NCBI RefSeq assembly: GCF_014859695.1
Contig: NZ_JACUTS010000014.1
Span: 1 to 39,432 of the forward strand
DNA: 39,432 bases
DNA from: Sulfurimonas sp.
GTDB taxonomy: Bacteria; Campylobacterota; Campylobacteria; Campylobacterales; Sulfurimonadaceae
Direction: 5' to 3'
The first letter of the stretch is position 1. Each line of letters starts with the position of its first letter. The notes beneath the pieces were generated by a model that was not told the origin of the DNA, did no database searches, and was given only the letters and a program-made list of their open reading frames with translations. The position numbers and the translations under genes are program-made. This document shows, piece after piece, positions 3,266 to 7,271 of this stretch.

Positions 3266-3342
3266 TATAAAATGAGCTATATCAGAGTTTAAATCTGTAA
3301 CATAAAAAAATCACACAGCATTTTGTTTCTCTATTTTTATTT

Positions 3343-3361
3343 TGTGATAAAATAATAACAA
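3343..3361 (+). promoter_or_regulatory. 19-bp repeated site, copy 1 (upstream of porin)
   Basis: TGTGATAAAATAATAACAA occurs here and again, identically, at 5009-5027 upstream of the small exported peptide gene. The first 18 bases form an imperfect dyad (six of nine symmetric positions pair: TGT-n-AT-n-A against T-n-AT-n-ACA), as expected for a site bound by a dimeric regulator. It lies about 90 bases upstream of the predicted porin transcription start. The regulator is unknown. Confidence 0.45.
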
Positions 3362-3433
3362 AATTAACATCTTAAAACAAAAATGTAAAGATATTGTAAA
3401 GACTTTGTCAAATAAAAATTGACACTATGCTTT

Positions 3434-3439
3434 TATAAT
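3434..3439 (+). promoter_or_regulatory. Probable -10 box of the porin gene
   Basis: TATAAT lies 30 bases before the porin ATG, giving a leader of about 24 bases. TTGACA at 3419-3424 is too close (9 bases) to serve as its -35. The 209-base gap upstream is AT-rich with A/T tracts, the usual form of strong promoters in this phylum. It also holds the 19-bp site at 3343-3361 and a looser TGTAA/TCACA dyad at 3296-3315. Confidence 0.5.
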
Positions 3440-3469
3440 TTTAACATCTAAACAATAAAAGGAATTGGG

Positions 3470-4720
3470 ATGAGAATATCAAAAACAACAGCTCCGTTTC
3501 TAGCTTTACTGCTAGCGGCGTCGGCATATGGGGTAGAAAACGTAAAGGTAAGTGGAGGTGCAAAGTATTGGTACCAAACAACTGCCGTAGAAAACGCTTC
3601 TAACAATGATATGTTCCAGCAAAAAACAAGCGTTGGGGTTGCTGCTGTTGAATTGGGAGTAAGTGCTGATCTTTATGATGGCTTAAAGGGGAAAGCAAGC
3701 GTTATAGGAGTTGACAGCCTTGGACTTGAGCAGAGTTTTGTAAAAGATATCTCATCTGCCGGTGCAGGATGGGAAAGTGACAACGGTTACTACAGAACAC
3801 AAATCTGGGTAAGCGAGGCAAACCTTGATTATAAAATATCAAATACATCTGTAATTGTAGGTCGTCAAGCGCTTAATACGCCACTACTCTTTACAGAGAG
3901 ATGGAATGCTTCATATAATACATTTGATGCCGCAGTGGTTATGAACAGCGATATTCCATATACAACACTTGTCGCTGGATATGTTCATCAGCACAATGGT
4001 GGAGCTGTTAGAGGCGCAAACAACAATACTCTTACAAATTTCCCAAGTACAACTATGCATAATGGAAGCTACTACGGTTTTGGAAGTACCTATAATGGTA
4101 CATCGGTGACAGACGGTGATAAAAGAGTATACGCATTCGGCGCAATAATAAAGCCTCCTGTTGAGAACTTAGCGGTAAATCTATGGTACTACAACGTAAA
4201 CTCTTTATTTACCGCATACTGGGCAGATGCAGAATACAAAAAATCAGGACTTTTTTTCGGAATTCAAAATGCGGGGATAAATTTAACAAATTCAAGTGTT
4301 GATGATGCTATGGTTACAGCTGCAAAAGTCGGATATAGTGCCGGAAAGTTCAGTGCAGACGTCTCCCTTTCTACAACTGCAACGGGTGAAACTGGTACAG
4401 CGACAATTGCAAATGCTGCAACAGGCGACAAATCTAAAGTATATACGCAGTCTGTATTTCAAGATGGTGCATTTGTTGGAGCGCGTAACACAGATGCTGT
4501 AAGAGCTGCGGCAAGTTACCAGTTTGAAGGGTTAAAGCTTACGGCTTCACTTCAAAATATAGATCAGACTTCAAGCGAAGGAACGGAATTTGACCTCATT
4601 GCATCTGCAAAAGTGGGCAAGTATGTAAATTTAACGGGGATATATGTTCATCAAGATATTGATGCAGCAACAGACAAAAAAGTTGACGCTATCCGTCTAA
4701 TTGCTGCTGTTAAGTTTTAG
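3470..4720 (+). CDS. Outer-membrane porin (OprD/Opr-like beta-barrel)
   Basis: Predicted major-type porin of 416 residues. The N-terminus is a Sec signal peptide (MRISKTTAPFLALLLAASAYG, cleavage expected near residue 21). The mature part alternates polar and hydrophobic residues as in transmembrane beta-strands, and the chain ends in AAVKF, whose terminal phenylalanine is the usual signal for BAM insertion. The segment IVGRQALNTPL and the stretch after it resemble the OprD-type porins of Sulfurimonas and relatives. The start is supported by AAAGGAATTGGG before the ATG. The gene stands alone with its own promoter region, and a converging 44-residue exported peptide gene follows. Substrate specificity cannot be read from the sequence. 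Confidence 0.85.
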   Translation: MRISKTTAPFLALLLAASAYGVENVKVSGGAKYWYQTTAVENASNNDMFQQKTSVGVAAVELGVSADLYDGLKGKASVIGVDSLGLEQSFVKDISSAGAGWESDNGYYRTQIWVSEANLDYKISNTSVIVGRQALNTPLLFTERWNASYNTFDAAVVMNSDIPYTTLVAGYVHQHNGGAVRGANNNTLTNFPSTTMHNGSYYGFGSTYNGTSVTDGDKRVYAFGAIIKPPVENLAVNLWYYNVNSLFTAYWADAEYKKSGLFFGIQNAGINLTNSSVDDAMVTAAKVGYSAGKFSADVSLSTTATGETGTATIANAATGDKSKVYTQSVFQDGAFVGARNTDAVRAAASYQFEGLKLTASLQNIDQTSSEGTEFDLIASAKVGKYVNLTGIYVHQDIDAATDKKVDAIRLIAAVKF

Positions 4721-4735
4721 GAAAAATCATGTTCT

Positions 4736-4789
4736 ATGCTCTGACTCTAAAAGTTTCTCTCCTACAATCAACTTAAAGAGTCGTAGCAT
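4736..4789. other. Long-loop inverted repeat between convergent genes
   Basis: ATGCTCTGACTCT (4736-4748) pairs with AGAGTCGTAGCAT (4777-4789) at 11 of 13 positions around a 28-base loop. It lies between the stops of the porin (4720) and the converging small peptide gene (4802), where a bidirectional transcription end would be expected. There is no T-run, so a terminator role is only possible. Confidence 0.3.
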
Positions 4790-4801
4790 ATGCAAATCTT
4801 G

Positions 4802-4936
4802 TTAGTACAAGATACCTTTATCGGGGTGAGGTTGCTCACCTCTGATAACCGACTTGTCATCACTGGCAGTTTGAGTTGCACTTAGGGCAATAGCCATACT
4901 CATCATCACAAAAATCATAGAAACAACTTTTTTCAT
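4802..4936 (-). CDS. 44-residue exported peptide, function unknown
   Basis: A short gene that is easily missed because of its length. ATG at 4936 is preceded by a near-perfect ribosome site (AAAGGAG, 7 bases before the start) and the frame runs to TAA at 4802. The first 20 residues (MKKVVSMIFVMMSMAIALSA) form a classical Sec signal peptide with a likely cut after ALSA. The mature peptide would be about 24 residues, polar, ending in GEQPHPDKGILY, without cysteines or a lipobox. A possible -10 (TATATA, 4973-4968) gives a leader of about 25 bases. The gene converges on the porin and shares with it an exact 19-bp upstream sequence. No family is recognised; it could be a periplasmic or secreted micro-protein. 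Confidence 0.68.
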   Translation of the reverse strand: MKKVVSMIFVMMSMAIALSATQTASDDKSVIRGEQPHPDKGILY

Positions 4937-5147
4937 AGGTGAACTCCTTTATCATAAAATTTGCACTTATATAATCAATCATGGTATGAAGATGATTAAA
5001 AATACAAATGTGATAAAATAATAACAAGTTAAAGAGTATTTTTGTCCCCTTTAGCCAATAAATTAAAAAAACTTATTCAACTTGTTCAAATCGTAACACT
5101 TTTTATTATAAGCTTCCTTATAACTATTTATAATATTGTTGTTTTAT
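4937..5147. other. AT-rich intergenic region upstream of the peptide gene
   Basis: This stretch holds the ribosome site and possible promoter of the 44-residue peptide gene and the second 19-bp site at 5009-5027. Bases 5028-5147 are AT-rich, end at the stop of the WD40 gene, and show no gene or clear hairpin. The whole gap between porin and WD40 gene (4721-5147) is otherwise accounted for by the inverted repeat and the peptide gene. Confidence 0.5.
5009..5027 (+). promoter_or_regulatory. 19-bp repeated site, copy 2 (upstream of peptide gene)
   Basis: Exact second copy of TGTGATAAAATAATAACAA. It lies 73-91 bases upstream of the peptide gene start and is inverted relative to that gene, whereas copy 1 is in the same orientation as the porin. 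An orientation-independent site fits an operator better than a promoter core. Confidence 0.45.
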
Positions 5148-7271
5148 TCACAAGATTGAATTAACTATCATAGATGGTCTCCAGCTCTGGGTAGAGCCTT
5201 GTTTTTGTGAGTTGATATTTATTTTACTCTCAGAAAACTTTACTTTAAAATCCTCAAAATAGCCCTCTATACGCTTAGTTAAGCCGTAGTAGAGTATGTA
5301 GTTTTTTATCCCGTTTTCTATACTTTTTTGATCTCTCTCTTCATCAAGAGCTCTGTAAAGTTGAGTAACATGAGCTTTTGAAAAAACATCTGCTATCTCT
5401 TGGCTTTTTGATTTTATATTCATATACTTTGCCAAAACTCTCTTTGCTCCCTCTATGTCAGCATAAAGGGCAAGATAGCCGGCTTTTTCGAGATCTTCTT
5501 CCCACTGTGCCTGGAGCATTTTTCCATTATTACTCTCTTTTAAATCCTCAAACTCATCCATAATAGTATACGCAAGAGTGCTGTCTCCATCTTTTAGAGC
5601 AGTGAAAAACTTTCTCTCTGCCTCTATTTTCTCTATACTCTCCTTCGCTTCATCCCTAAAGTCATCAAAATCGAGCAAAACACGAAAAATTTTAAGAGCT
5701 GAATTTGCATCACTGTTTCCAAGCATCACCTGTGCTTTTATATAGAGATTGTCGGAGTAGTTTACAAGAGCTCTATATTCCGGATACTCTTTTAAAACCT
5801 CCGCCTGCTTTAGGATTTCAAAAGCAAGTTTAAATTTTCTTTGAGTAATTGCTTCTTTAAATCTTTTATACGCATTTATATTTTGTGTAAGTTCTTGAAT
5901 CAGAAGCGTTTTTTCACTTATTCCTCTGTACGGAGCCAATATCTCCTGAACTTTGTGGCTCAATTTCTGCTCAAGCATATACTTTTTTGCAAGAGCAAAA
6001 TCCTTCTCCCACTCAGCCTCCATCGACTTGTAAACCTTCGTCTCTTTGTAAAGCGGATGAAGATTTACCAGAGCGTATGCAAGAGAGAGCTTGTTTGCTT
6101 TTACATATGCGAGGAACTTCTCATACTCAGAGTACTCAGACATAAGCTTTTGCATCTGCTGTTTTTTAGATGCAATACCCAAAAAATCTTTAAACAGCCC
6201 CTCTGCCTTGGCTTTTTCGCAGTTTTCTAAAAGCAGTTTTGCTCTTTGGATTGTTTTCTCCCAAAGCATCTCAAATGTTTTGTATGGTTTTGTATATACC
6301 AAAAGCGGATTCTCTTTTATGCAGCTTGAGAGATTGGCATACTTTTTTTGCTCAAACAGTTCTCGCAAATGCCCCTCTTGCTCAAAAATATCGTAAACAA
6401 GAAGCTCGCCGTTTGCGCTTGCTACTATCAGCTCTTCTCTCTTCTCATTAAAGCTTAAAGAGGTAATTGCATCGGGGAGTTTTATATACTTTTTTGAGAT
6501 CTGTTCATAATTTGCTAAATCATATACAAGAATATATCCGAGTTTTGTACCTAAAAAAAGAAACCTACTCTTGCTTGCCTCGCAGAGAGATATAACCTCG
6601 TCATGTATGCCTTTTAACCTTGCAATAACTTTTGCGCTCTTTGCATCCCAGACTATTGCGCCGCTCTTTTTATCGAGACTAAAAAGCCTTCCATCCCCTA
6701 GAAAATGAAGCTTTAGCACGGGAGAGGAGTGGGCTTTTAACTTGCCTTGCGGAGTCATCATAGCCAAATTGTATAGGGAGATGTTTTTATCGTAACCGGA
6801 AGTTGCCACCCACTTACCATCCTCTGTAAATGCTATGTCGGTTGCAAAATCTTTATGCGGCGGAAGCGTAAAAGCAAGCTGGGTGCTCTTTATATCAATG
6901 GCGTATATTATGCCGTCATCACCGCATGAAAACATATATTTTCCATTCGGGTCGATTGCGACACATGAGACCTCGCCCTGATGTCTATCCATCGTAGTAA
7001 GAAGTTTTTTTCCTTTTGTCTCAAAGAGCATAGATTTTTTACACTCTTTGTCAATTAAAGCAAAATATTCTCCATCCGGAGTAAACGAAACTACCTTTGA
7101 GCCCTGTCTTGTATGCACAACATCGACTTTTAGTTCATCCTTGAGACTTAAACTCTCTATATCCAAATACCTTATAGTTGTACGCGCATCAACCGCCAAA
7201 AGCGTTTTAGCATCCAAGATTTGTGTATATATTATCGCTTCGCTAAAACTACTTTTTTTTATTGGTTTCAT
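5148..7271 (-). CDS. WD40-repeat protein with C-terminal helical repeats
   Basis: A 707-residue protein without signal peptide or membrane segment, so probably cytoplasmic. Residues about 10-300 contain at least six WD40-like blades (for example HQGEVSCVAIDPNGKYMFSC then GDDGIIYAIDI; HKDFATDIAFTEDGKWVATS then GYDKNISLYNL; HSSPVLKLHFLGDGRLFSL), predicted to fold as a beta-propeller. Residues about 310-690 are helical, with repeated short units rich in A, L, Y and K that resemble TPR-like repeats. This architecture suggests a scaffold for protein complexes, but no function can be assigned. The ATG at 7271 is seven bases after the ilvA stop, so it is probably cotranscribed with ilvA and the CoA-binding gene. 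It is the last gene of that group. Confidence 0.8.
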   Translation of the reverse strand: MKPIKKSSFSEAIIYTQILDAKTLLAVDARTTIRYLDIESLSLKDELKVDVVHTRQGSKVVSFTPDGEYFALIDKECKKSMLFETKGKKLLTTMDRHQGEVSCVAIDPNGKYMFSCGDDGIIYAIDIKSTQLAFTLPPHKDFATDIAFTEDGKWVATSGYDKNISLYNLAMMTPQGKLKAHSSPVLKLHFLGDGRLFSLDKKSGAIVWDAKSAKVIARLKGIHDEVISLCEASKSRFLFLGTKLGYILVYDLANYEQISKKYIKLPDAITSLSFNEKREELIVASANGELLVYDIFEQEGHLRELFEQKKYANLSSCIKENPLLVYTKPYKTFEMLWEKTIQRAKLLLENCEKAKAEGLFKDFLGIASKKQQMQKLMSEYSEYEKFLAYVKANKLSLAYALVNLHPLYKETKVYKSMEAEWEKDFALAKKYMLEQKLSHKVQEILAPYRGISEKTLLIQELTQNINAYKRFKEAITQRKFKLAFEILKQAEVLKEYPEYRALVNYSDNLYIKAQVMLGNSDANSALKIFRVLLDFDDFRDEAKESIEKIEAERKFFTALKDGDSTLAYTIMDEFEDLKESNNGKMLQAQWEEDLEKAGYLALYADIEGAKRVLAKYMNIKSKSQEIADVFSKAHVTQLYRALDEERDQKSIENGIKNYILYYGLTKRIEGYFEDFKVKFSESKININSQKQGSTQSWRPSMIVNSIL

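Follow-up and report, generated by a model that had tools for sequence, protein, structure and literature searches.

A conserved, unannotated small gene for a predicted exported peptide paired with a convergent porin gene in Sulfurimonas

A frame of 44 codons plus a stop, on the minus strand at 4802–4936 of the 39,432-nt stretch of Sulfurimonas DNA analyzed here (the window), is a genuine gene that is selected at the protein level. Its eight orthologues are tied one-to-one to a single subfamily of porins, encoded convergently beside them, and this pairing has been retained through relocation. The product, MKKVVSMIFVMMSMAIALSATQTASDDKSVIRGEQPHPDKGILY (44 aa), is predicted to be exported. We lean, with slightly more confidence than doubt, toward the view that it is a periplasmic peptide acting as an accessory of the convergent porin.

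A small gene under protein-level selection

The start context and the product have the form that a sequence-only reading of this DNA had described. The Shine–Dalgarno sequence AAAGGAG (4944–4950, minus strand) stands seven bases ahead of the ATG at 4936, and the orthologues also carry an SD-like purine run. Codons 1–20 (4877–4936, minus strand) have the features of a Sec signal peptide. In the source genome these are KK, a hydrophobic core (maximum Kyte–Doolittle value 2.6 over 11 residues) and LSA before residue 21; across all eight orthologues they are one or two basic N-terminal residues, a core value of 2.4–2.9 and an invariant alanine at position 20, after which cleavage is predicted. Most orthologues have leucine at position −3 relative to the cleavage point, a residue that signal peptidase I tolerates but that is not ideal. 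Codons 21–44 (4805–4876, minus strand) encode the predicted mature part, TQTASDDKSVIRGEQPHPDKGILY, which is polar, has 24 residues and carries a net charge of −1, in keeping with the polar remainder of about that length in the earlier reading.

Single-sequence and profile searches of 135 Sulfurimonas species recovered full-length orthologues in eight (G000, the source genome, and G005, G021, G007, G112, G027, G125 and G065; loci L001–L008), with profile E ≤ 2e-23. The remaining profile matches in the genus had E > 1e-4 and covered chiefly the signal peptide. A wider sample of 399 genomes of the order contained no full-length match outside the genus, and the leftover matches there were again mostly signal peptides. 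Conservation is limited to eight species of a single genus, short of the Campylobacterota-wide range over which the earlier reading had proposed to search. The source genome contains no paralogue, and the gene is single copy.

A conserved mature sequence with synonymous-biased changes had been proposed as the mark of a real gene, and this is what the alignments contain. In the mature part, pS was 0.47 and pN 0.05 between G000 and G005, and 0.57 and 0.11 between G000 and G021; pS exceeded pN in essentially every orthologue comparison, mature part included. None of the eight frames has an internal stop, and the other five reading frames are almost always stopped. Eight residues are invariant (M1, A20, D27, I31, G33, G41, L43 and Y44), and because the last three of these are fixed, the peptide always ends G-I/L-L-Y before its stop codon. 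G125 and G065 carry a C-x-x-x-C pair at the position of the (E/Q)xHP part. These features bear directly on whether a marginal frame has simply been kept through a neighboring selected gene. The porin does adjoin the frame in every case. However, the large excess of pS over pN, the invariant residues, the eight species free of internal stops, the conserved start context and the stopped alternative frames make such hitchhiking, already disfavored, hardly credible.

The distribution of constraint along the peptide also bears on a second alternative. Type I toxin systems of the AapA kind, in which a small hydrophobic peptide is silenced by antisense RNA, are known in Campylobacterota. Like AapA/IsoA, the present locus has a small ORF with a hydrophobic N-terminus and convergent transcription over its 3′ side. 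An AapA-like peptide would be conserved as a hydrophobic, membrane-seeking sequence, whereas here the polar C-terminal half has fixed residues in all eight orthologues. Between G000 and G021, this polar part is conserved better than the hydrophobic part (pN 0.11 vs. 0.37). The clear cleavage-like site, the single-copy arrangement, the selected polar mature part that is predicted to be exported and the constant porin partner likewise depart from the AapA pattern, and we judge a toxin of this type very improbable.

The peptide belongs to no family tested. With a family match defined as one above the curated cut-off or at E ≤ 0.001, Pfam, NCBIfam, PHROGs and PDB sequences gave no meaningful match; the best value, E 0.015, was subthreshold and inconsistent among members. 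Rfam gave no match, and searches of viral contigs and of plasmids returned none. Small exported proteins are mostly absent from annotation. At other loci in relatives (L043, L045, L049 and L050), short frames unrelated to this one also encode signal peptides, some of them ending in ACERNDYQHPLHRK or containing HHMAxYEDAGIY, and these are candidates for further unlisted exported peptides.

A one-to-one tie to one porin subfamily

The convergent partner (3470–4720, plus strand) encodes a 416-aa Opr-like porin. It resembles Opr-family porins in a weak match to NF033923 (E 5.5e-7) but falls far under the curated cut-off of that family (29 vs. 150 bits), and a fold prediction from a three-row alignment reached a pLDDT of 26. 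We know of no Opr-family porin with a dedicated convergent peptide.

The convergent position relative to the porin, part of the original proposal, is real and is kept in all eight species, even where the outer neighbors differ; in three fragmented assemblies, only a C-terminal piece of the porin lies on the contig of the small gene. Porins of this subfamily (at least 63% identity) occur in exactly the eight peptide carriers, and the next porins of the genus are at about 38%. The peptide thus accompanies the subfamily in 8 of 8 species that have it and is present in 0 of 127 without it (Fisher 4.5e-13, uncorrected for relatedness or adjacency). Since adjacent genes can be removed by one deletion, this value overstates independence, and joint function does not follow from co-occurrence by itself. 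Retention of the pair through relocation and selection at the protein level are stronger arguments than the Fisher value.

Relocation is apparent from the outer neighbors. In five carriers these are the WD40 protein and the ilvB side. G021 has a PP2C-like gene together with an SHP/cytochrome cluster, G065 has ilvA and a kinase–regulator pair, and G125 has a gene judged DUF255-like from its sequence. The distribution of the pair is patchy: in an rpoB tree, carriers stand beside noncarriers (G000 with G032, G027 with G111, G065 with G106), so the two genes have been jointly lost or gained several times. The sisters G032, G111 and G106 have clean empty sites, and in seven noncarriers the gap from the WD40 gene (or ilvA) to ilvB is 42–115 bp, with the ilvB promoter region intact. 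Because the flanks are directly adjacent in species lacking both genes, the pair forms a discrete, patchily distributed cassette of ∼1.9 kb, which by the same empty-site comparison extends approximately over 3295–5147, between the WD40 gene and ilvB. The joint presence and absence of the two genes points to a role of the peptide together with the porin. Overall, the claim that this DNA holds an unlisted small gene is supported: the frame encodes an overlooked, translated-looking and predicted exported small protein linked to the porin.

The flanking 707-aa WD40-repeat protein (5148–7271, minus strand) sits between ilvA and the cassette. It is missing at the site in G134 and G065, and its identity between species is ∼45–70%, compared with 82–97% for its neighbors.

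A possible accessory of the porin

In the reading that we prefer, the Sec pathway would export the product, signal peptidase I would trim it after A20, and a 24-residue polar peptide with the fixed C-terminal end G-[I/L]-L-Y would be left in the periplasm. There it could bind the porin or the porin assembly machinery through its conserved D-D-K-x-x-I-x-G core and C-terminal LY, and this binding would tune porin assembly or opening. The conserved mature part and fixed C-terminus fit a working exported peptide. That the product would be a factor of the periplasm, or one that is secreted, with a link to the outer membrane, as had been envisaged, is an inference. Outer-membrane assembly and periplasmic proteases both recognize C-terminal signals; the constant aromatic end of the peptide recalls such signals, a likeness that we take as a lead only. 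Searches of Pfam, NCBIfam, PHROGs and PDB sequences revealed no resemblance to known porin partners.

The same properties of the peptide, short, polar, predicted to be exported and patchy among species, could instead suit a molecule that leaves the cell, by way of the porin or beside it, and serves as a signal or as a weapon against relatives. We regard this as improbable. The adjoining genes include no transporter, processing enzyme or immunity gene, the sole constant partner is one porin subfamily, and the net charge is negative, unlike that of most antimicrobial peptides.

The accessory reading is closest in logic to small partner proteins such as CioY, a 34-aa protein of the CydX type in Campylobacter jejuni (PMC11955535). 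In both cases, an unlisted tiny protein beside the gene for one membrane complex was found by conservation and synteny. The two differ in compartment, partner and arrangement: CioY consists of one transmembrane helix within an oxidase, whereas the Sulfurimonas peptide is polar and predicted to be Sec-exported, its neighbor is an outer-membrane porin encoded on the opposite strand, and the comparison showed no sequence relation to CioY.

If the peptide does act on the porin, an outer-membrane channel would have a periplasmic peptide as its dedicated partner. To our knowledge, there is no close example of a periplasmic peptide controlling such a channel. The locus offers an unusually clean test bed: one porin subfamily is the constant partner, some species naturally have the pair and others lack it, and a conserved RNA element lies between the two genes.

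A palindromic stem-loop at the junction

That element is a palindromic stem-loop between the two stop codons (4735–4790), which folds on either strand and, on the plus strand, folds far better than shuffled sequences (z = −5.6). Its 12-base loop (4757–4768; CTCTCCTACAAT on the plus strand, ATTGTAGGAGAG on the minus strand) is nearly invariant, the minus-strand form being (A/C)TTGTAGGAGAG, with very little variation, in six species and CTCGTAGGGAGAG in the remaining two. The stems vary more than the loop, and 5 of 17 pairs show a kept two-sided change. Across the 135 genomes, a covariance model built from six of the same junction loci matched strongly at this junction only; the weaker matches that were inspected lay mostly within coding sequence. 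A genome-wide repeat was considered and rejected, as strong matches are limited to this junction. A scan for U-tailed terminators did not report the stem-loop as a canonical terminator.

Both transcripts may end in this one palindrome, in which case their loops would be complementary and could pair. An RNA role for the shared 3′ palindrome is the main rival to the accessory reading, with which it is compatible rather than mutually exclusive. In its strong form, the RNA would matter more than the peptide: the complementary 3′ loops of the convergent transcripts would pair, and encoding the peptide would be only one of two functions of its transcript. In a variant, the CU-rich loop CUCUCCUACAAG at the porin 3′ end would act by base-pairing with ribosome sites. 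We consider this reading, the variant included, possible but decidedly on the unlikely side. The folding, a loop more conserved than its stems, stem pairing kept through two-sided changes, the confinement of strong matches to the junction and the lack of a canonical U-tailed terminator there all argue for it, as does the recurrence, by inspection, of the loop variant GTAGGGAGA in the porin ribosome site of G125 and G065. However, selection clearly acts at the protein level too, six of the eight species show no such match between loop and ribosome site, conservation of a terminator between the two convergent genes would account for part of the pattern, and the covariance model was itself made from six of these loci. 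The two roles could also be combined in a two-gene module, in which the locus would control the porin twice, by RNA pairing between messages that share a palindromic 3′ end with an invariant loop and by the exported peptide acting on the porin protein; we think this improbable.

In G125 and G065 (L079/L110 and L078), where the porin ribosome site repeats the minus-strand junction loop, the 3′ loop of the porin message could pair with its own ribosome site. A separate small hairpin covers the last codons and the stop codon of the small gene (4796–4813; ATCTTGTACTAACAAGAT on the minus strand). It is not significant in every genome: a comparable stop-codon hairpin occurs in six of the eight species, is weak in G007 and G027, and has no common register.

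Distinct promoter sites for the two genes

Returning to the accessory reading, weak coregulation of the two genes counts against it. Joint regulation had been proposed on the basis of a shared 19-bp site. The site itself, the dyad TTGTTATTATTTTATCACA, is real: it occurs exactly at 3343–3361 and at 5009–5027, both on the minus strand, against a chance expectation of 0.05 occurrences in the window, and the whole genome has no others at up to one mismatch. The copy at 5009–5027 lies ∼90 bp before the small-gene start and is presumably a regulator site. A dyad of the form TGTTAT-N6-TATCACA lies 74–91 bp ahead of the small gene in all eight orthologues, weakly in G125, and because the matrix was built from these small-gene sites, that presence is descriptive. 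The copy at 3343–3361 lies between the porin gene and ilvB, oriented opposite to the porin; ahead of the porin, only G000 (an exact copy) and its close relative G005 (a near-exact one) have the site. It could therefore serve the peptide gene in all eight species but the porin in only two, and the case for joint regulation through it is weaker than had been proposed. We rejected the possibility that the two copies are target-site duplications of an insertion, as empty sites lack a copy and both copies lie inside the cassette.

The porin has a promoter element of its own, and of the two promoters only that of the porin carries the TTGTAAAG repeat. A tandem 11-bp repeat, ATGTAAAGATATTGTAAAGA (3383–3402, plus strand), resembles a site for an OmpR-type response regulator and is the only copy in the genome. 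Tandem TTGTAAAGA repeats occur in the porin promoters of five species (G000, G005, G021, G065 and G125). Genome-wide scans of G000 and of G005 found one such site each, both at the porin and none in the small-gene promoter. In seven cassette-free species (L224, L228, L232, L234, L240, L241 and L242), this repeat, in the same promoter arrangement, stands before the SHP (DUF1924)–DHC–cytochrome b operon. SHP operons with a kinase, a regulator and a periplasmic accessory ORF have been described (SHP–DHC–cytochrome b, SK1, response regulator and Orf1; PMC2909971). The Sulfurimonas pair resembles these systems in adjoining a kinase–regulator set in G021 and G065, along with cytochrome genes in G021, and in the repeat shared by the porin promoter of five species with SHP promoters. 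It differs in that the small gene lacks the repeat and in that G007 and G112 have the pair without a close kinase orthologue.

G000, G005, G021 and G065 each have a close orthologue of the SHP-linked kinase, whereas in G007 and G112 there is no more than a ∼42% paralogue and the porin promoters are without the repeat. The neighboring kinase was rejected as an obligate partner of the pair on account of these two species and of the many that have the kinase without the pair. The SHP-linked response regulator is a candidate to bind the TTGTAAAGA repeat, and the porin probably belongs to an SHP-linked regulon in part of the genus, whereas the small gene has its own promoter site. With such membership, the regulon of the SHP oxygen-binding cytochrome system, itself poorly understood, would gain a porin.

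Near-copies of the 19-bp dyad also occur in other species of the genus, where they precede a lolA-like gene (L084, L088, L089, L093, L094 and L099) or a FadL-type porin gene (L091 and L100), both named by eye. Perhaps these sites belong to an envelope regulon of one regulator.
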